A stretch of DNA of 64,000 nt from Pseudomonadota bacterium (GTDB lineage Bacteria; Pseudomonadota; Gammaproteobacteria; Burkholderiales; Rhodocyclaceae), in assembly GCA_029776255.1 (NCBI GenBank), contig JAKOTN010000061.1, positions 1 through 64,000 on the forward strand, read 5' to 3'. Shown piece after piece: positions 6,609 to 58,719 of the stretch (the first letter of the stretch is position 1; each line of letters begins with the position of its first letter). Made by a program: the position numbers and the translations under genes. The notes under the pieces are model-generated. The model was not told where the DNA came from and made no database searches. It saw only the letters and a program-made list of their open reading frames with translations.

Positions 6609-7430
6609 TCAGGCGCGACGACGGCGGGTCGCCAGCAAACCGAGCAGACCGGCGCCAAGCAACGCCAAACCAGCCGGTTCCGGAACACGCTGAACGTCGT
6701 AGTTGCCCGTGAAGGAAACCAAGTCGGCTGCAAACACACCCGAACGCGTCGCCCTGAAGCCATACAGATAACCCGGGTCGGAACCGTCGAAATTAACCTT
6801 GACCACCTCGCTGACCTGATGAAGACCGGTCAGCACTGGCGCGGAGGTGCCGGCACTGAGTGTGTTCAGGAATGCCGTGGCATCATACAAGCCAGCCAAG
6901 CCGACGGACAGCGTATTGCCGGTAACATCCACATAGGAAATGTTCGGGTCGCTGACCAGTTGCCACAAATAGCGCACGGATGCGCTCGGATCGACGTCTA
7001 CATTGAGGAAGTTGGTTAACGCCGTATTCAAGTTGGCCGCATTCAACTGGGTGCCGAAAGCGGAAACGGCGGCATCCTGGATATACCGAATGGCCAGGGC
7101 GTTGCTATTGCTGGTCCAGTCGGCATAAGTCAGGCTGCTCAGAGCGACATTATGGCCGTTGGCGATGCCGCTCAGGGTCGTGACCGGACCGCCAAATTTG
7201 CTCAGCTCGACGTTCCCGCCCGGTGCGGCGGCGCTGCCGCCCAGGGCGGTAGCGATATCGGCCGCCGTCGGCGCCGCCACCGGCGAGAGCAATCCGCCGG
7301 CTCCTTCCGCCCAAACGATGTAATTCCCTGTGATGGTGGCGCCGGTCAGCGCCGCCGCCGACGCGCCGACCGACGCGGCCATGATCACCGAGGCGGCCAG
7401 CGTTTTCATTTTAAATCCGAATGCACTCAC
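6609..7430 (-). CDS. PEP-CTERM (VPEP) sorting-domain surface protein
   Basis: A secreted protein carrying the exosortase recognition signal. The 273-residue product starts with an N-terminal signal peptide (hydrophobic stretch ~10-27, cleavage near ASAAA). It has a Ser/Thr/Asn-rich middle with no recognised catalytic domain, and ends with VPEP followed by a hydrophobic helix and the basic tail TRRRRA, the tripartite PEP-CTERM signal. Exosortase is expected to cut at PEP and pass the protein to the surface or exopolysaccharide; no exosortase gene lies in this window. GTG at 7430 is preferred because GGGAGAA precedes it at 6-7 bases; ATG at 7409 lacks this. The exopolysaccharide genes beside it fit the usual co-occurrence. 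Confidence 0.88.
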   Translation of the reverse strand: MSAFGFKMKTLAASVIMAASVGASAAALTGATITGNYIVWAEGAGGLLSPVAAPTAADIATALGGSAAAPGGNVELSKFGGPVTTLSGIANGHNVALSSLTYADWTSNSNALAIRYIQDAAVSAFGTQLNAANLNTALTNFLNVDVDPSASVRYLWQLVSDPNISYVDVTGNTLSVGLAGLYDATAFLNTLSAGTSAPVLTGLHQVSEVVKVNFDGSDPGYLYGFRATRSGVFAADLVSFTGNYDVQRVPEPAGLALLGAGLLGLLATRRRRA

Positions 7431-7574
7431 AAATTTCTCCCTAGAAGATGGCGATCAACACGCAGAATGACCAACCGAACCAAGAATCAAAGAAACACCA
7501 GAACTCAACCAAAAAAGGGTTTCTCGCGATGGAAATCGGCGGATGGCAGCCAGTAAATTTCCGGTGTGGTAAAA

Positions 7575-7590
7575 AGCAAAAAACATGCCT
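7575..7590 (-). promoter_or_regulatory. Putative sigma-54 (-24/-12) promoter for the PEP-CTERM gene
   Basis: Read on the minus strand, the site is AGGCATGTTTTTTGCT: GG and GC are separated by exactly ten bases, and it matches the RpoN consensus YTGGCAYR-N4-TTGCW except for its first two positions. It lies ~145 bp before the GTG start. The rest of the 443-bp gap (7431-7873) holds no recognised gene; a 7-bp hairpin (7854-7870) without T-run follows ispF. In some floc-forming Betaproteobacteria PEP-CTERM genes are known to need RpoN and the PrsK/PrsR two-component system, which makes this site plausible. Confidence 0.5.
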
Positions 7591-7873
7591 CGTATAGCAA
7601 GCAATTAAAAACAAATACTTTTTCCTGTTCGTTTTCGGCATTCTCCTGAAATTGTAAAAAATTGTAAAGAAACTCGACACTACCCGCGCTTCAGCGGCGT
7701 CGTCGGATCCGGGTGACGATCGGGCAGCGGTCGAAAACACCCCTGGCGAATGCCTGGCGAGCAGCGTCTCAGACCGGTAACGCACTTCGAAATGGAAATT
7801 GTCCCCGCCGTGGCGTGGCGAGCGGCAAGACGGCGCGGGAGAGAGGCGGGACGCAAGGCGCGCCGCCTTGGTT

Positions 7874-51916: not shown

Positions 51917-52723
51917 ATGAGCATTTCACTGAAAACCCCTGACGAGATCGCGGCCATGCGTGTCGCCGGCCAACTGACGGCCGAGGTTCTTGATTACATT
52001 ACGCCTTATGTTCAAGCTGGAATCACCACCGACGAAATCGACCGCCTCTGTCACGACTATATGGTCAATGTGCAACAGAGCATTCCCGCACCATTGAATT
52101 ACGCTCCACCAGGCTATCAGCCCTACCCGAAATCGATTTGCTCTTCGATCAACCACCAGGTTTGCCATGGTGTTCCTGGCGAGCGCCAGCTGCGGAATGG
52201 CGACATTGTCAATCTCGACGTCACGGTCATCAAAAACGGCTACCACGGCGACAGCAGCCGGATGTATCACGTTGGCGAAACTTCGCTGCAAGCGAAGCGA
52301 CTGTGCGAAGTGACCTTTGAATGCCTCTGGCTGGGCATTACCCGGGTTCGAGCCGGCGCCCATCTCGGCGACGTCGGCCACGCCATCCAACGTCACGCCG
52401 AACAATCGGGCTACTCCGTTGTTCGCGAATTTTGCGGGCACGGTATCGGCGCGAAATTCCATGAAGAACCGCAAGTGCTTCACTATGGTCGACCGCACAC
52501 CGGCATCCGTCTGGAGGCCGGCATGGTATTCACCATCGAACCGATGATCAATGCCGGAAAAGCGGCCATCAAGACCATGGCCGACGGCTGGACCATCGTC
52601 ACCAAGGATCACAGTCTGTCGGCGCAGTGGGAACACACCATTCTGGTCACCGAAACAGGTTATGAAGTCTTGACCACATCGGCTGGTAGCCGCCAAAAAC
52701 CCGACTGGATTGGCGCGACGTGA
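51917..52723 (+). CDS. map: methionine aminopeptidase, type I
   Basis: Removes N-terminal Met from new proteins; cytosolic dimetal enzyme. The 268-residue product has the five metal-ligand regions: [20 protein letters not shown] (two Asp), [19 protein letters not shown] (His), [10 protein letters not shown] (Glu) and [13 protein letters not shown] (Glu). ATG at 51917; the longer open frame starting at 51815 is leader sequence. It is divergent from rpsB and overlaps glnD at TGATG, both conserved arrangements. Confidence 0.97.
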
Positions 52724-55305
52724 TGCCTGACGCCTGCCTGGACCGCACCGCGCTTATCGGCCGATACAAACCCGCGTTACAAGCCGGACAAGCGGCTATT
52801 CGGCAACACTATCTTGCCGAAGGAGACGCTTCGCGACTATTGGGCGAGCGCTGCCAACTCATTGACGACGTATTTCGCGATTTGTGGCAGGCGCTGGCCT
52901 TGCCCGCCTCGCTGGCTTTGGTGGCGGTCGGTGGCTACGGACGAGGCGAACTTTACCCGGCGTCGGACGTCGATCTGCTGTTGCTGTTGCCGGCGTCTCC
53001 CGACGAAGGCTTGACGGAAAAACTGGAACAGGCCGTCGCTCTTTTTTTTGACATCGGTCTGGAAGTCGCGCCCAGCGTGCGCACCGTCGACGAATGCTGC
53101 CAAGCGGCGTCCGACGACCTGACGATACAAACCGCCTTGCTGGAAGCGCGGCTGCTCGCCGGAAATGCGGCGCTGTTCCAAGAATTCATCGTCGCAAGAC
53201 AGAAAAACATTGATCCGCGTGCTTTTTTCGAAGCAAAGCGCAAGGAGCAGGACGAACGCCATTTGCGCTTCCAGCACTCGCCGTATAGTTTGGAGCCCAA
53301 TTGCAAGGAAGCTCCCGGTGGCTTGCGGGACTTGCACATGATCCTGTGGATCGCGCGCGCCGCCGGTTACGGCCAAACCTGGGAAGATCTCGCGCGCCAC
53401 GGCTTCATCACCGCCGAAGAAGAGGAAACCTTGCGGCGCAGCGTTGCCTTCCTACAGCAATTACGCACCCGTTTGCATCTGCACGCCGGTCGCCGCGAAG
53501 ATCGCCTGCTATTCGACTATCAAACGGCACTGGCCGAACAAATGGGTTATCAAGCAACGGCAACCCGTCGCGCCAGCGAACGCCTGATGCAGAAATACTA
53601 CCGAACGGCAAAAGACGTCACGCAAATCAATACCATACTGTTACTGAACATCGGCGCCGCGATTTCCCCCCCGCCGGATTTGCCGCCACTTCCGATTGAC
53701 GAAAACTTCCAGAACATGCATGACCTGCTCGACGTGGTCGACGACAGCGTTTTCGACAGGGAACCGGGACTGATGCTGGAAGCGTTCCTGTTGATGCAGA
53801 AACATCCGGAACTTCAGGGAATGACCGCAAAAACCTTGCGCGCCCTGTGGCACGCCCGCACGCGGATCGACGACGACTTCCGCCGGTCACCGCGAAATCG
53901 CGCCCGCTTCATCGACATTTTTCAGCAACCACGAGGCGTGCTGCATGAAATTCGGCGAATGAACCAATTCGGCGTTCTGGGCCGCTATCTACCGAATTTC
54001 GGCAAGATCGTCGGTCAAATGCAGCATGACTTGTTTCACATCTACACCGTCGACCAGCATATCCTGCAAGTGCTACGCAACCTGCGTCGTTTCCTGGCCG
54101 CCGAATTCGCGCACGAATACCCATTGTGCAGCGAATTGATGGAAGGCTTCCCCAATCGCTGGGTGCTTTATATCGCCGCACTGTTCCACGACATCGCCAA
54201 GGCGCGCGGCGGCGACCACTCCAAACTCGGCGCCGTCGATGCCGAAATATTCTGCACGGACCACGGCCTCGATGCCACCGACACCGAGCTTGTCGTCTGG
54301 CTGGTTCGCCAACATTTGCTGATGTCCAATGTGGCCCAAAAACAGGACATCGCCGATCCCGACGTGATTTGTGCTTTTGCCGCCACCGTCGGCGACGAAA
54401 GGCATCTCACGGCGCTGTACTTGTTCACCGTCGCCGACATTCGTGGCACCAGCCCAAAAGTCTGGAATACCTGGAAAGGACAACTTCTCGAGCAACTTTT
54501 CAGAAGCACCTGTCGCACCCTGCTATCCGGCGGGCAAGCACCGGTAAAACAGGGCCTGATAGAGGAACGGCAGCAGCAGGCGTTAGGTTTGTTACGTTAT
54601 TTCGCCCTCCCCGACACGGTTCAGGAACGGCTGTGGAAACAACTCGACGCGGTGTATTTCCTGCGCCACTCCGCCGAGGAGATCGCCTGGCACACGCGCG
54701 CACTGCACTACCGCACCCGTATCGAGGAACCCGTGGTAAAAGCGCGGGTCAATCCGCAAGGCGAAGGGCTGGAGGTCATGATCTATACCCGCGACCAGCG
54801 AGACCTGTTCGGGCGCGTCGTCGGCTTCTTCAGCCGTGCCGGCTACACCATCGTCGACGCGAAAATACACACCACTCGGCATGGTTATGCCCTGGACAGC
54901 TTCATGCTTCTCGATCTCAGCGACCGCGGCAGCGACCGCGCCATGATCAGCTACATCGAGCACGAGTTACACTCGCGTCTGCTACGCCAAACGCCACCGG
55001 AAGCCCCCGGCGGGGGACGTATTTCGCGGCAAGTCAAGCACTTTCCAATCCAGCCGGCAGTCACCATCGAGCCGGACGAAAAAGGCCTGCACTACGTACT
55101 CTCGATTAGCGCCGCCGATCGTCCCGGGCTGCTTTACGCCATTGCCATGGCACTGGCGGCGCACGGCGCCAACCTGCACACGGCCAAGATTTCGACCCTC
55201 GGCGAGCGGGTCGAGGACACCTTTCTGATCAGCGGCGGCGACCTCGGCAACTCCGCCAGCCGCATCAAGCTGGAAACCGAACTTCTCGAACGCCTGAAGC
55301 TCTGA
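52723..55305 (+). CDS. glnD: bifunctional uridylyltransferase/uridylyl-removing enzyme
   Basis: Senses glutamine and adds or removes UMP on PII proteins, controlling nitrogen metabolism and indirectly NtrC/sigma-54 programmes. The 860-residue product has the nucleotidyltransferase motif [20 protein letters not shown] (Asp82, Asp84), an HD domain ([18 protein letters not shown] near 487), and two C-terminal ACT domains ([40 protein letters not shown]). ATG at 52723 shares bases with the map stop (TGATG); GTG at 52720 is an alternative. Length normal (~850-890). Confidence 0.97.
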
Positions 55306-55480
55306 GCTTTCCACCTGCGAAGCGAGTTGGCATAATTCCGTCCGGACAAATTGCAGAAACCCGTCATATAGCAGCATTCAAAGTGTCGGTTTCTTTTACA
55401 CCCTCATCTCTCCACTCCGTCGAAAGTTTGCCGATTTTCAACAACCGAATAATTTAGTTGATTTTTTTGTGAATTGAATT

Positions 55481-55497
55481 TTTGGCATAATTATTGC
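55481..55497 (+). promoter_or_regulatory. Sigma-54 promoter, full consensus match
   Basis: TTGGCATAATTATTGCT fits every position of the RpoN -24/-12 consensus YTGGCAYR-N4-TTGCW. It lies ~214 bp upstream of the small Tat-signal protein gene and is the only candidate promoter in the 405-bp gap after glnD (55306-55710), which is unusually AT-rich and otherwise empty. The word TTGGCATAATT also occurs at 55327-55337 without a -12 element. An enhancer-binding activator would be needed; its site was not identified. Confidence 0.65.
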
Positions 55498-55710
55498 TTA
55501 TAATAACAACAGGCGAAACTCGGAACGGAAAAATACTGGAAATAGACTTCCAGCCGCTTTTCAGGCCGACAACGTGACGAAATGCACGCGCTATTCCTAT
55601 TCTGAAAACTAGAATCCATGGGCCGGTACTGAAGTCGAAGTGATGATGCGCCGAGATCTGGTGGTACCGAAATGTTTCGATAAAGTTCGCAGCCATGTGG
55701 AGCAACATCA

Positions 55711-56157
55711 ATGATGAAAACTATTAAAACTATGGGCAAAGAATCCGCATCGATGGAAGTATCTCGAGACGAAAACGTGGTAAGCGGGCCTGGAATCTCG
55801 TCCGCTGATCTGCGTCGGCGCAATTTGGTCCGCGGCGCGGTGGCTTTCGCGCCGTTGGTTTTGACCTTGCGGAGCGGCGCACTGGCAGCCGCTTCTTGCA
55901 CCGGCGCCAAAATCGTGAACATCCCGGCCAGCGGAAATTTCACAACCTCCAGCAGTTCCGATGTTTGTATCCCCGAAGCGGATATTTGCCCAGGTGCGCC
56001 GCTCACGGGTACGACAAAAATCGTCACGCACACCGAAACGAAAATTCCCGTGACTTCGGTCGGTGGCGGTTTATATCGTTGCGACAAACCGACTGGCGGC
56101 TACTACACGGGTAACATGGCGATCCTTAGCTCGCACTCCGCCGCATCCATTGTTTAA
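55711..56157 (+). CDS. small exported protein with Tat-like signal, candidate substrate of the kinase cluster
   Basis: A 148-residue protein with an N-terminal polar leader (~33 residues), a twin-arginine-like motif RRRNLVRG, and a hydrophobic stretch AVAFAPLVLTL ending near GALAAAS. The mature part is ~88 residues, rich in Thr, Ser and Gly with four cysteines (CTGAK, VCIPEADIC, YRCDK). No family was recognised. GGAG lies 8 bases before ATG 55711; ATG at 55714 is also possible. It is the first gene after the sigma-54 site and precedes the PqqD-like/kinase/nucleotidyltransferase genes by 219 bp, so it is the natural candidate for their protein substrate. That link is inference. Confidence 0.65.
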   Translation: MMKTIKTMGKESASMEVSRDENVVSGPGISSADLRRRNLVRGAVAFAPLVLTLRSGALAAASCTGAKIVNIPASGNFTTSSSSDVCIPEADICPGAPLTGTTKIVTHTETKIPVTSVGGGLYRCDKPTGGYYTGNMAILSSHSAASIV

Positions 56158-56263
56158 AACTTTCTTTATTTTCTATCGCTAGCCGGCTGTCGAACATTCG
56201 AGACTGAATCGACTCCGGCAGTGCCCGTGACCGAAACCGCACAGTGACACTTCGTCAGGGTGT

Positions 56264-56294
56264 TTGACACACCCTTCGCACGAACCGCTATAAA
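56264..56294 (+). promoter_or_regulatory. Possible sigma-70 promoter before the PqqD-like gene
   Basis: TTGACA (56264-56269) and TATAAA (56289-56294) are spaced by 19 bases, slightly long. They lie ~83 bp before the PqqD-like start and could give basal expression of the enzyme genes independent of sigma-54. Confidence 0.4.
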
Positions 56295-56376
56295 CTAGCG
56301 ACATCTGGGTTGGAATGAGAGAGATGTTGCTCGGCGTATCCCCACTGGCCGTTTTTGTGCGATCAAAAAAAATCCA

Positions 56377-56667
56377 ATGCTCCTGCTTCCGGCCGGCACG
56401 CGCCTGATCTGGCAGAAGTGCGACGAACTGTATTTCGTCTATCAACCTTCATCCACCGAGACGCACGTTTTTAACGAAACCTCGGCGACGATCATCGCCT
56501 GCCTGAAAACGGAACCGTTGTCGATGGTGTCTTTAAGAGAGCGGACAGAAACGGCTCTCGGTCTTTCCATTGGCGAACTCGAAACGGAAGAATTCACCTT
56601 CGCCGTGGTGCGGCTCGAGGAACTGGGGTTGATCGATTTCGACGACGAGCCGATTGTTGCTCGATGA
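56377..56667 (+). CDS. PqqD-like peptide-binding protein (HPr-rel-A system)
   Basis: A 96-residue protein with the winged-helix/RRE layout of PqqD: beta-strands in LYFVYQPSSTETHVFNETSA, then helices TIIACLKTEPLSMVSLRERT and FAVVRLEELGLIDF. PqqD and RRE domains hold the leader of a peptide for modifying enzymes. It matches the member NCBI calls the HPr-rel-A system PqqD family peptide chaperone, always paired with an HprK-related kinase. The start ATG 56377 has no clear ribosome site. Its TGA overlaps the kinase ATG (ATGA). Identification is by length, pattern and neighbour. Confidence 0.8.
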   Translation: MLLLPAGTRLIWQKCDELYFVYQPSSTETHVFNETSATIIACLKTEPLSMVSLRERTETALGLSIGELETEEFTFAVVRLEELGLIDFDDEPIVAR

Positions 56668-57581
56668 TCGTTGCCGACCTGTCTATTGCGGATTTTGAAC
56701 GGTGCGTGGCAAGGCATGGCCTGCCGATCCGCTTTGGCCCCTTCAATTTGCGTATTCGTTCCGATCTGGAAACGTTCACGTCGGTTGCGCATCGGCTTTA
56801 CGCTCCGTACCCGCTGTTCGAAGCGCAGGAAATCAGCGATTTTCACGTCCAGATCACGCGTCCGCGCGGGTTACGCGGCTGGATTCGCCGGCAGGCCTGC
56901 TTTGCCGTCGATGGACATTTCCCTTTCGCGCCGTATACCGTTGAGCACGCTTTTCCCGCGCTGGAATGGGGTATCAACTGGTGCGTCGCGACGCGCTCGC
57001 ACCATCTGTTGATGCTGCACGCGGCGGGCGTCGAGCGCGACGGACACGCCATTCTGTTCCCCGCTTCACCCGGCGACGGCAAATCCACGTTGTGTACCGC
57101 GTTGGTTCACTCTGGATGGCGGTTGCTGTCCGATGAATTCGGTCTGGTGCGGCCGGAAGACGGCCTGTTGTTGCCGCTGCCGCGTGTGATTCCGCTAAAA
57201 AACGAGTCGATCAAGGTCATCAGGCGCTTCCGACCGGAAGCGGTCATGGGGCCGGCCTTCCTGGAAACCCGCAAGGGTACGGTGGTGCATGTCCAGCCGC
57301 CGGAGGATAGCATCCGGCGAGCACAGGAAACCGCCAAACCGCGTTGGCTGGTGTTCCCGCGCTGGATCGCCGACGCGCCCTTGACGCTGACGGAAATACC
57401 CAAAAGCCAGGCTTTTCTGATGGTTGCCAGTAACGCCTTCAATTATGAAGTGCTCGACCAGACCGCGTTTCAGCTGGTCATCGACATGGTGCGTAGCTGC
57501 GATTGCTTTTCACTGAGTTATTCGAAACTCGACGAGGCGATCGCCGCGCTCGACGACCTGAGCGGGCGCGTCGATGCGTGA
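56664..57581 (+). CDS. HprK-related kinase A
   Basis: A 305-residue protein related to the C-terminal kinase domain of HPr kinase/phosphorylase. Seen are HAAGVERDGHAILFPASPGD with the following GKST forming Walker A at ~133-142, the acidic LLSDEFGLV at ~154-162 (catalytic/Mg region), and LPRVIPLKNESIKVIRRF. No HPr or PTS gene is near, and the N-terminal HprK domain is absent, so HPr is not the expected substrate. Homologous kinases phosphorylate the C-terminal Ser of some lasso peptides (PadeK-type). It overlaps both neighbours and so forms one unit with the PqqD-like and nucleotidyltransferase genes. Confidence 0.85.
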   Translation: MIVADLSIADFERCVARHGLPIRFGPFNLRIRSDLETFTSVAHRLYAPYPLFEAQEISDFHVQITRPRGLRGWIRRQACFAVDGHFPFAPYTVEHAFPALEWGINWCVATRSHHLLMLHAAGVERDGHAILFPASPGDGKSTLCTALVHSGWRLLSDEFGLVRPEDGLLLPLPRVIPLKNESIKVIRRFRPEAVMGPAFLETRKGTVVHVQPPEDSIRRAQETAKPRWLVFPRWIADAPLTLTEIPKSQAFLMVASNAFNYEVLDQTAFQLVIDMVRSCDCFSLSYSKLDEAIAALDDLSGRVDA

Positions 57582-58719
57582 CATGAACGCCCAGATCCGG
57601 CGCGCGCACCGGCTTTTGCTCGACGCCATCAAAACGCCGGAAAACCTGCCCACCTTGCCCCCCGCCGACTGGGAACTGCTGTTACGCGTCGCCCGCCGCG
57701 TCAGAGTTCTGGGACGCATCGAATCCGACCTTGCCCGCGGGGATTTGCTCGGCCGGATTCCACCTCGCGCGGCCAAGCATTTGCGCGCGGCCGGCAACGT
57801 GATCGCGCATCGAAAGACGCTGGTGAGTTGGGAGGTAAACCGCCTTCTTTGGGCGCTCAAGGGCAGCGATGTGCCGCTGATCCTGCTGAAAGGCACGGGT
57901 TATCTCCTCGCCGACTTGCCGCCGGCGCGCGGCCGCATCTTTGCCGATGTCGACCTGCTGGTTCCGGAGGAACGACTGGGTGAAATCGAGGCCCGGCTGC
58001 TCGAAGTCGGCTGGTTCCGAACGCAGATCGATCCTTACGACGATCGGTATTACCGTGTATGGATGCATGAGATTCCGCCGCTCCGTCATCAGGAACGCGG
58101 AACCGAAATCGACATTCATCATCGCTTGCTGCCAAAAACCAGCCGCCTGGACTCCAACCCGGCCACATTATTCGCCGCCGCCAGACCCTTGGCCGATCCG
58201 CGCCTGCGGGTTCTCGCGCCCGCCGACATGGTGCTGCATGCTCTGGTGCACCTCTTCCTGGAAGGCGATCCCGACGAGGGATTGCGGCTCCGCGATTTGA
58301 TCGATGTGCATGACTTGCTCGGCCACTTCGGCCAACAGCCCGGTTTTTGGGACAATCTGCCGCCACGGGCGCGCGAGTTGGGTTTCGAGCGCCCGCTGTA
58401 CTACGGCCTGACACATGCGCAAGCCCTTTTCGCGACGCCGATCCCCGCGTCGGTATTGCAACACCTCAAGGACGCCGCGCCAATCTGGCCCGTCCGGGCA
58501 CTGATGGCCCGCCTGATCGACCTTGCCTTGTTGCCTGGGCACCCGGACTACCCTTCCCGCCGGGCAGCCCTGGCGCGCTGGCTGCTTTACGCCCGCGCGC
58601 ACTGGCTGCGAATGCCCGCCGGCCTGCTCGCCAAACACCTCGCCCGCAAACTGTGGCTGCGTTTCCGGGGTGCCCGGAAGCGGATCGACCTGTCGCAGCT
58701 CGATCTCAAGCAGCAATAA
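57574..58719 (+). CDS. uncharacterised nucleotidyltransferase family protein (PF14907-type)
   Basis: A 381-residue protein with the degenerate Pol-beta-like nucleotidyltransferase pattern ILLKGTGYLLADLPPARGRI then FADVDLLVPEE: Lys106-Gly107 and the metal Asp pair 125/127, then EIDIHHRLL as the possible third acidic strand. The remainder is helical (LHALVHLFLEGDPDEGLRLR). It overlaps the kinase gene by 8 bp. Related genes accompany kinase-tailored lasso peptide clusters and HPr-rel-A loci; the transferred group and acceptor are unknown. It ends 58 bp before the dnaE2 start. Confidence 0.82.
   Translation: MRDMNAQIRRAHRLLLDAIKTPENLPTLPPADWELLLRVARRVRVLGRIESDLARGDLLGRIPPRAAKHLRAAGNVIAHRKTLVSWEVNRLLWALKGSDVPLILLKGTGYLLADLPPARGRIFADVDLLVPEERLGEIEARLLEVGWFRTQIDPYDDRYYRVWMHEIPPLRHQERGTEIDIHHRLLPKTSRLDSNPATLFAAARPLADPRLRVLAPADMVLHALVHLFLEGDPDEGLRLRDLIDVHDLLGHFGQQPGFWDNLPPRARELGFERPLYYGLTHAQALFATPIPASVLQHLKDAAPIWPVRALMARLIDLALLPGHPDYPSRRAALARWLLYARAHWLRMPAGLLAKHLARKLWLRFRGARKRIDLSQLDLKQQ

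Follow-up and report, generated by a model that had tools for sequence, protein, structure and literature searches.

Background

Phosphorylating kinases are known from lasso-peptide clusters, where they act on the C-terminal serine of the precursor, and PsmN of such a cluster is required for the addition of hexoses to the precursor phosphoserine, according to the accessible part of PMC9266682. For proteobacterial PEP-CTERM genes, an upstream arrangement of a 17-nt motif with TTTACA at its end, a spacer of 32-92 nt and a sigma-54 site has been described, in association with PrsK/PrsR (Haft and others, accessible part of PMC1569441), and a PEP-CTERM gene of an Aquincola strain depends on RpoN (accessible part of PMC9850573). 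NCBIfam has moreover already named a pair formed by a kinase and a PqqD-like protein the “HPr-rel-A system”, the kinase being “HprK-related kinase A”. The present study deals with a cassette of four genes that shares traits with each of these systems, located at 55711-58719 in a 64,000-nt stretch of DNA (hereafter the window; contig JAKOTN010000061.1 of a Rhodocyclaceae genome, assembly GCA_029776255.1). It encodes a small exported protein (SP), a PqqD-like protein, an HprK-related kinase and a PF14907 nucleotidyltransferase-like enzyme (NTase). We consider it probable that it is a protein-maturation cassette of the exosortase/PEP-CTERM regulon, in which the PqqD-like protein and the kinase, together with the NTase where there is one, modify SP before its export by the twin-arginine translocation (Tat) pathway.

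A full-text literature search, with most subscription journals and all bioRxiv preprints outside its scope, returned no paper with “HPr-rel-A” or “HprK-related kinase A” and none joining two of exosortase, PqqD and HprK. For PqqD together with HPr kinase, the same search returned lasso-peptide papers.

Results and discussion

Organization of the cassette and its enzymes

The elements of the cassette are the following.

55384..55400, + strand: PrsR-type box (motif 1 of PEP-CTERM genes), TGTCGGTTTCTTTTACA, 17 nt long with TTTACA as its 3' end
55483..55498, + strand: sigma-54 -24/-12 site TGGCAT-N5-TTGCT, with GG at 55484-85 and GC at 55496-97
55711..56157, + strand: SP (P0001, 148 aa), candidate substrate
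55711..55890, + strand: N-terminal extension and putative Tat-type signal of SP, residues 1-60, LRRRNLVRGAVAFAPLVLTLRSGALAA, predicted local distance difference test (pLDDT) below 50
55891..56154, + strand: mature domain of SP, residues 61-148, predicted to be rich in beta structure and to close with a short helix
56119..56154, + strand: C-terminal motif of SP, AILSSHSAASIV, with S140 and S146 (codon 56146-56148) as candidate acceptors
56377..56667, + strand: PqqD-like protein (P0002, 96 aa), TIGR04353 “HPr-rel-A system PqqD family peptide chaperone”
56664..57581, + strand: HprK-related kinase A (P0003, 305 aa), TIGR04352, with conserved active-site residues
57574..58719, + strand: NTase (P0004, 381 aa), PF14907 profile

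An earlier sequence-only reading of this DNA had described the three enzyme or binder genes as tightly overlapping at 56377-58719, and the coordinates agree with it, the PqqD-like and kinase genes sharing 4 nt and the kinase and NTase genes 8 nt. Its family assignments are confirmed for the kinase, with 408.8 bits against TIGR04352 (cut-off 200), and for the NTase, with 191.3 bits against PF14907 (cut-off 31.2). The third protein had been assigned to the PqqD-like proteins of the RiPP recognition element type (RiPP, ribosomally synthesized and post-translationally modified peptide): P0002 reaches 47.7 bits against TIGR04353 (cut-off 35) and has no match to the Pfam PqqD model. Among named records, the closest relatives of the kinase (71-76% identity) belong for the most part to Accumulibacter and Propionivibrio, by which the window's genome is Candidatus Accumulibacter-like. 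The Walker A of the kinase is intact, as had been claimed, and H119, G139, K140, S141, T142, D157, E158 and K204 are conserved in 89/89 aligned loci; in the NTase, K106, G107, D125, D127, D180, H182 and H183 are conserved in 82/82. Judging from these residues, both enzymes look active. Of the His-Lys-Asp-Asp motif of lasso kinases, the first three residues are present as H119, K140 and D157 in 89/89 loci, while the fourth is E158, again in 89/89. Sequence searches of the PDB with the kinase, the NTase and SP gave no match below E 0.19.

The small exported protein accompanies the kinase

The loci compared were the best-scoring ones: 30 of 31 relative loci, 29 from a family search, 29 from a class search and the window itself, making 89 kinase loci. 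The kinase family is common, since TIGR04352 was over its cut-off in 59/150 genomes of the family (60 matches, of which the best 30 were used, one being the window) and in 42/370 genomes of the class (best 30 used, one again the window), with at most 15 (family) or 6 (class) candidates scored per genome. A locus with its kinase at a contig end (L063) and those of the window's own genome (L001, L002, L007) were left out, and L051 and L054, cassettes of the cultured Dechloromonas denitrificans and Rhodocyclus tenuis that duplicate L011 and L010, were counted in the 89 loci and in the 85 loci of the promoter analysis and excluded from the kinase tree.

In 88 of the 89 loci the PqqD gene, or the place it would occupy, is preceded by an SP open reading frame (ORF) bearing a twin-arginine signal, the exception being L008, whose contig begins within the SP ORF; the automatic picker was empty for L008, L030 and L061, the last two being settled from their reading frames (in L061 a masked stretch separates SP and kinase). 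SP also stands at its place in 3/3 further genomes of the window's genus. The PqqD gene was recognized by profile in 83/89 loci; among the six without a match (L020, L030, L052, L053, L060, L061), L030 has a PqqD-like frame by eye and L052, L053 and L060 hold ORFs of 86-108 aa at the PqqD place. The NTase was found by profile in 82/89 loci and not in L046-L049, L084, L090 and L092, with short flanks at L047 and L084. That the cassette occurs without an NTase at these loci suggests phosphorylation as its central step, to which the NTase would be an addition. At L090 (787-1011), where no NTase was found, only about 13 residues (GSACISCNASLI) follow the SP signal, a possible minimal substrate.

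Searches that started from SP led back to the kinase. Profile A2, built on one class of SPs (SPG, see below), matched one place in each of 36/150 genomes, and each of the 36 is followed on the same strand, at a distance of 375-786 nt, by a TIGR04352 kinase. Profile A1, built on the window's own type (ACC), matched 19/150 genomes, and 18 of the 19 matches, the window's own included, adjoin the kinase according to a comparison of coordinates by eye; the 17 others of these cover only positions 10-92 of 157, around the signal. The one match away from the kinase (G071, E 9e-4) is a 36-aa frame with a stop. At most 19 (A2) or 25 (A1) candidates were scored per genome. The signal region of SP seems to mark this system. 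The sequence-only reading had made the link between SP and the PqqD/kinase pair depend on their co-occurrence in related genomes, which was found, and the partnership is well supported.

SP classes follow the kinase tree

SPs were sorted into classes whose names (ACC, SPG, SCW, NTase-less) are our own. The ACC type, that of the window, has SCTG after the signal and a C-terminal AILSSxSAxSL. The SPG type, mostly around 200 aa, has SPGYWK...VAALLNA; in an alignment of 43 rows sorted by pattern, among them a mis-sorted ACC-type protein (L038) and the wrong longest frame of L057, serine occupies each of two post-signal positions in 42/43 rows and one asparagine is present in 43/43. The SCW type carries SCWNS or SCLAS close to the C-terminus, and the NTase-less type ends in CYTSF, CLTSF, CNASL and other tails. 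A CxxS shared among SPs is a candidate motif, from an impression by eye only.

Placed on a kinase tree of 87 rows made by a quick method, the five SP labels, set by eye with SPG as the default for the 60 rows in no other list, need 4 changes, the minimum possible, against a mean of 25.7 after shuffling. The ACC kinases form one clade (Shimodaira-Hasegawa-like approximate likelihood-ratio test 99), as do the SCW kinases (98); the NTase-less rows do not form a single clade (3 changes). The ACC kinase clade takes in two records titled Methylococcaceae (L043, L044), and the genus of the window holds three classes: in one genome (G079) an SPG-type SP is paired with a kinase sharing 43% identity with that of the window, and in two (G018, G125) SCW-type SPs are paired with kinases sharing 40%. 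For these two reasons the distribution of SP/kinase classes is not one of simple species descent. In all four of these genomes, the window's included, glnD stands beside the cassette on its upstream side (the window GlnD shows 84, 84 and 80% match with those of L108, L109 and L110), so that different matching SP/kinase pairs occupy one site within one genus. The arrangement of these three loci and of the window (52720-58719), with three SP/kinase classes behind glnD, looks as if whole cassettes had been swapped in place.

In the window the cassette sits behind glnD and ahead of an error-prone polymerase gene. Six flanking genes were scanned between 49.8 and 63.2 kb (tsf, rpsB, map, glnD, the error-prone polymerase gene and rimO), and no lasso cyclase, leader protease, HPr, phosphotransferase system (PTS) or sugar gene is among them, in line with the earlier statement that the first four are missing nearby. 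A reading as a defence or toxin-antitoxin system was set aside, with 14.2 bits against PF08843 (AbiEii; cut-off 22.5) and no PADLOC match at E ≤ 1.

A promoter with the signature of the PEP-CTERM regulon

The sigma-54 site that had been proposed ahead of SP is upheld, matching 11/11 scored consensus positions. With 89 nt from TTTACA to GG and a box-to-site spacer of about 81 nt, the window has the 17-nt TTTACA-ended motif, the spacer within 32-92 nt and the -24/-12 site of the PEP-CTERM regulon. A site scoring at least 9/11 is present upstream of SP in 69/85 loci, a count that omits L087 (short upstream region) and includes L057 with a wrong longest frame and no sigma-54 site found, against 11/170 reverse-complement or single-base-shuffled controls and 113/850 dinucleotide shuffles; such a site with TTTACA 46-115 nt above it is present in 54/85 loci against 1/170 and 3/850 controls. 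As the locus counts are far above those of the controls, the site is beyond chance. The 55 distances from TTTACA to the sigma-54 site cluster near 70, 81 and 91 nt, about one helical turn per step, with a best period of 10.6 bp and a resultant of 0.72 (0.73 for the 43 loci left without ACC loci and duplicates); none of 20,000 uniform draws reached the observed periodicity of 54 distances, a result inflated by related loci. In the 55 pairs, selected on TTTACA alone, the stretch ahead of it mostly starts with TGTC (T 43, G 52, T 51, C 51), giving the consensus box TGTCGG-N5-TTTACA.

The window's genome contains 11 copies of the box TGTSGR-N5-TTTACA and 2 of its reversed control. Six of these boxes precede genes with a PEP-CTERM-like tail (one of them, L116, without a sigma-54 site in range) and one precedes SP; two near contig ends gave no ORF, and one (L121), which its coordinates place within a PEP-CTERM reading frame, may be due to chance. 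The remaining box (L112, G000:C5:30894-30910) lies ahead of an ORF of 86 aa that looks exported and lacks a PEP-CTERM tail. TIGR02595 gave 11 hits in the genome at E ≤ 0.1, SP not being among them; nine were resolved, L102 and L103 giving no frame. Among six PEP-CTERM genes scanned, box and sigma-54 site are both present in L094, L096, L098 and L099, that of L098 at 114 nt, outside the usual distance, and the PEP-CTERM gene of L102 has both as well (as L122). A genome search for TTTACA-N58-88-TGGCA-N6-TTGC gave a single match, the site of the window. The window itself contains a PEP-CTERM protein gene (6615-7679, - strand, 273-aa ORF) with its own TGTCGA-N5-TTTACA box and a sigma-54-like site. 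PrsR is encoded in the genome (TIGR02915, 733 bits, cut-off 503). The cassette carries the box and -24/-12 signature of the PEP-CTERM regulon, as do PEP-CTERM genes of the same genome.

All four genes may be read on one transcript from the sigma-54 site; 219 nt lie between SP and the PqqD-like gene (56158-56376). This gap exceeds the SP-PqqD spacing of most loci in one compared set, and it might carry a second promoter or a control element.

Association with exosortase

Exosortase (PF09721, E ≤ 0.001) was found in 57/59 kinase-positive and 25/91 kinase-negative genomes among the 150 of the family (one of the 57, G114, falling below the Pfam cut-off), with a Fisher value of 6e-19 that overstates the link since the genomes are not independent. 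Kinase and exosortase are 11-22 kb apart in G135, G080, G019 and G008 and on different contigs in the window's genome. Ten neighbouring genes were scanned across loci: PrsK lies within 2 kb of SP in L052 and L059, a gene resembling the XrtA-system ATPase is near L060 (290 bits, cut-off 324.5), wecB adjoins the L045 cassette and TviB/TviC-like genes adjoin L060, the remainder being less telling.

Signal, fold and candidate acceptor serines of SP

The first gene had been read as encoding a small exported protein, which we retain and amend to a protein with an export signal that is, by its sequence, of the Tat type. The Tat consensus is SRRxFLK. In the window's SP (LRRRNLVRG...), as in 85 of 86 automatically picked SPs, a twin arginine stands before a hydrophobic stretch; in the remaining one, L076, the gap that goes with RR is longer. 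The alignment of the signals, which also holds the wrong frame of L057, was anchored on the run of basic residues, so the conservation of the arginines is partly by construction. TatC is encoded in the window's genome, and cleavage would take place near residue 60. SP has no Pfam, NCBIfam or PADLOC family match, and none of five SPs scanned was over the cut-off of any Pfam or NCBIfam model.

An AlphaFold2 model of P0001 from 13 sequences predicts residues 1-60 to be disordered and residues 61-140 to be beta-rich (block-mean pLDDT 72-89); residues 141-148, where a short helix begins at 141, average 63. In the PDB, Foldseek found no structure with E under 0.15, and no VIA-align Z exceeded 3.6; without a fold match we make no claim on the fold. 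The model of an SPG-class SP (L045, 8 sequences) is poor (pLDDT 44). In the ACC-type alignment, which holds 13 of the 15 ACC proteins, C63, C86, C93 and C124 of the mature domain are invariant, and S140 and S146, invariant in 13/13 and both within the last nine residues of the window's SP, are, leaving aside the cleavage site, the only invariant serines in the mature part. At least one residue follows S146, the criterion for lasso precursors being a terminal conserved serine.

A universal rule of a C-terminal Ser/Thr in SPs was tried and rejected as enriched, not universal, and retained as class-specific. Ser or Thr followed by F, W, L, I, M or Y occurs within the last six residues of 39/87 SPs (the wrong longest frame of L057 being replaced), against 724/4300 interior windows, 10/89 kinases, 6/83 PqqD-like proteins and 3/82 NTases. 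A C-terminal serine motif is present in the ACC, SCW and some NTase-less types and absent from the SPG class.

Proposed mechanism and alternative explanations

In the maturation that we propose, SP would be made in the cytoplasm with its Tat-type signal and held by the PqqD-like protein, probably through its N-terminal leader, which would present it to the kinase. The kinase would phosphorylate SP, with a conserved serine (S146 or S140 in the ACC class) as the likeliest acceptor, and the PF14907 enzyme, where present, would then probably add to the phosphate. Tat export suits folded proteins and would fit a protein folded and modified inside the cell. The folded, modified SP would leave through the Tat pore as PrsR and sigma-54 switch on the PEP-CTERM surface proteins; this timing would place its role in the exopolysaccharide matrix or in the assembly of the matrix. 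Of the earlier interpretation, the partnership of SP, the sigma-54 site and the likeness of the enzymes to those of lasso clusters are borne out, so that it is supported in part; the binding of SP by the PqqD-like protein, its phosphorylation and its possible nucleotidylation or glycosyl-phosphorylation keep the rank of proposals. The present analysis adds the SP classes, the PrsR-type box, the link to exosortase and PEP-CTERM, the Tat type of the export signal and the name that NCBI gives to the kinase/PqqD pair.

Several observations weigh against this maturation. No one acceptor residue is common to all SP classes, and the most conserved serines of the SPG class directly follow the signal and are not C-terminal. 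The extension ahead of the twin arginine shows little conservation, which sets it apart from typical RiPP leaders, and the Pfam TAT_signal model has no hit in P0001 at E ≤ 1 (10.1 bits in the relative L026, cut-off 22.7). To these are added the Glu in place of Asp at the fourth lasso-kinase residue, the lack of an NTase in 7/89 loci, the 219-nt spacing behind SP and the two kinase-positive genomes without an exosortase hit, as well as the inflated Fisher value. SPs lying elsewhere may have been missed by the profile searches because of the limited number of candidates scored. Finally, according to the accessible part of PMC9266682, the role of PsmN may be nucleotidylation followed by the action of a host glycosyltransferase.

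The nucleotide-sugar genes at some loci (wecB at L045, TviB/TviC-like genes at L060) and the co-occurrence with exosortase would also fit a kinase and a PF14907 enzyme acting on a sugar or nucleotide of an exopolysaccharide pathway, with SP as an unmodified periplasmic partner of the product. We regard this as unlikely, while granting it a real chance: the gene overlapping that of the kinase encodes a PqqD-family peptide-binding protein, which points to a peptide substrate, the SP class agrees with the kinase tree, and the flanking genes scanned in the window are not sugar genes. It is improbable that the cassette is a signalling module whose kinase targets a regulatory protein elsewhere, in the manner of HPr kinase, SP being an exported co-regulated output or sensor. 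The relation to HPr kinase that speaks for it is distant (10.2 bits against the HPr kinase/phosphorylase model TIGR00679, E 0.31, cut-off 240), no HPr or PTS gene is among the six flanking genes scanned, and the different SP/kinase pairs at the same glnD site within one genus indicate that the partner of the kinase seems to travel with it.

The joint presence of a PqqD-like protein, a kinase and an NTase, as in phosphorylated lasso clusters, and the SP of L090 with its few residues after the signal could instead recall a RiPP pathway that trims SP, as the precursor, down to a small natural product for secretion. This we hold to be highly improbable, given the absence of a cyclase and a leader protease from the flanking genes scanned, the mature part of the window's SP predicted as a folded domain, the size of most SPG-class SPs and the general suitability of Tat export for folded proteins. 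Within the maturation of a Tat-exported SP that we favour, there is a small chance that the kinase and the PF14907 enzyme build a phosphodiester-linked sugar on a serine of SP, which as a protein would then be an anchor or primer for the exosortase-associated exopolysaccharide; if true, bacteria would here have a way of producing phosphoglycosylated matrix proteins in the cytoplasm.

The cassette suggests that a protein is chemically marked, in a manner little studied so far, before it leaves the cell. Its constant exported partner and its regulon make the named but unexplained HPr-rel-A system testable, and raise the questions of what exosortase bacteria, including floc and biofilm formers, do to a protein before export and of whether RiPP-style tailoring enzymes also act on whole exported proteins.

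Comparison with known systems

The kinase resembles HPr kinase/phosphorylase in having Walker A and the catalytic His and Asp in the same order; it differs in remaining under the TIGR00679 cut-off and in having no HPr among the flanking genes scanned. Lasso clusters have a PqqD-like binder of their own, B1. The sequence-only reading had likened the cassette to phosphorylated lasso clusters (paeninodin PadeK, pseudomycoidin PsmK/PsmN), aptly as regards the enzymes: both have an HprK-like kinase with His-Lys-Asp and an NTase homologue, as well as a partner or precursor with a conserved serine near the C-terminus. The cassette is unlike them in lacking a cyclase or leader protease among the flanking genes scanned, in the glutamate at the fourth kinase residue and in its partner, a protein with a Tat-type signal and a predicted folded domain. 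It falls within the HPr-rel-A system (TIGR04352 and TIGR04353), its kinase and adjacent PqqD-like protein both being over the curated cut-offs; the model names give no substrate, and for none of the five SPs scanned did a Pfam or NCBIfam model reach its cut-off. The accessible part of PMC1569441, on the PEP-CTERM/exosortase (XrtA) regulon, does not mention the kinase cassette, and SP differs from PEP-CTERM proteins in lying outside the PEP-CTERM hits and in its Tat-type signal. The cassette shares with the regulon the same kind of 17-nt box and sigma-54 site, in the same genomes and sometimes near PrsK.

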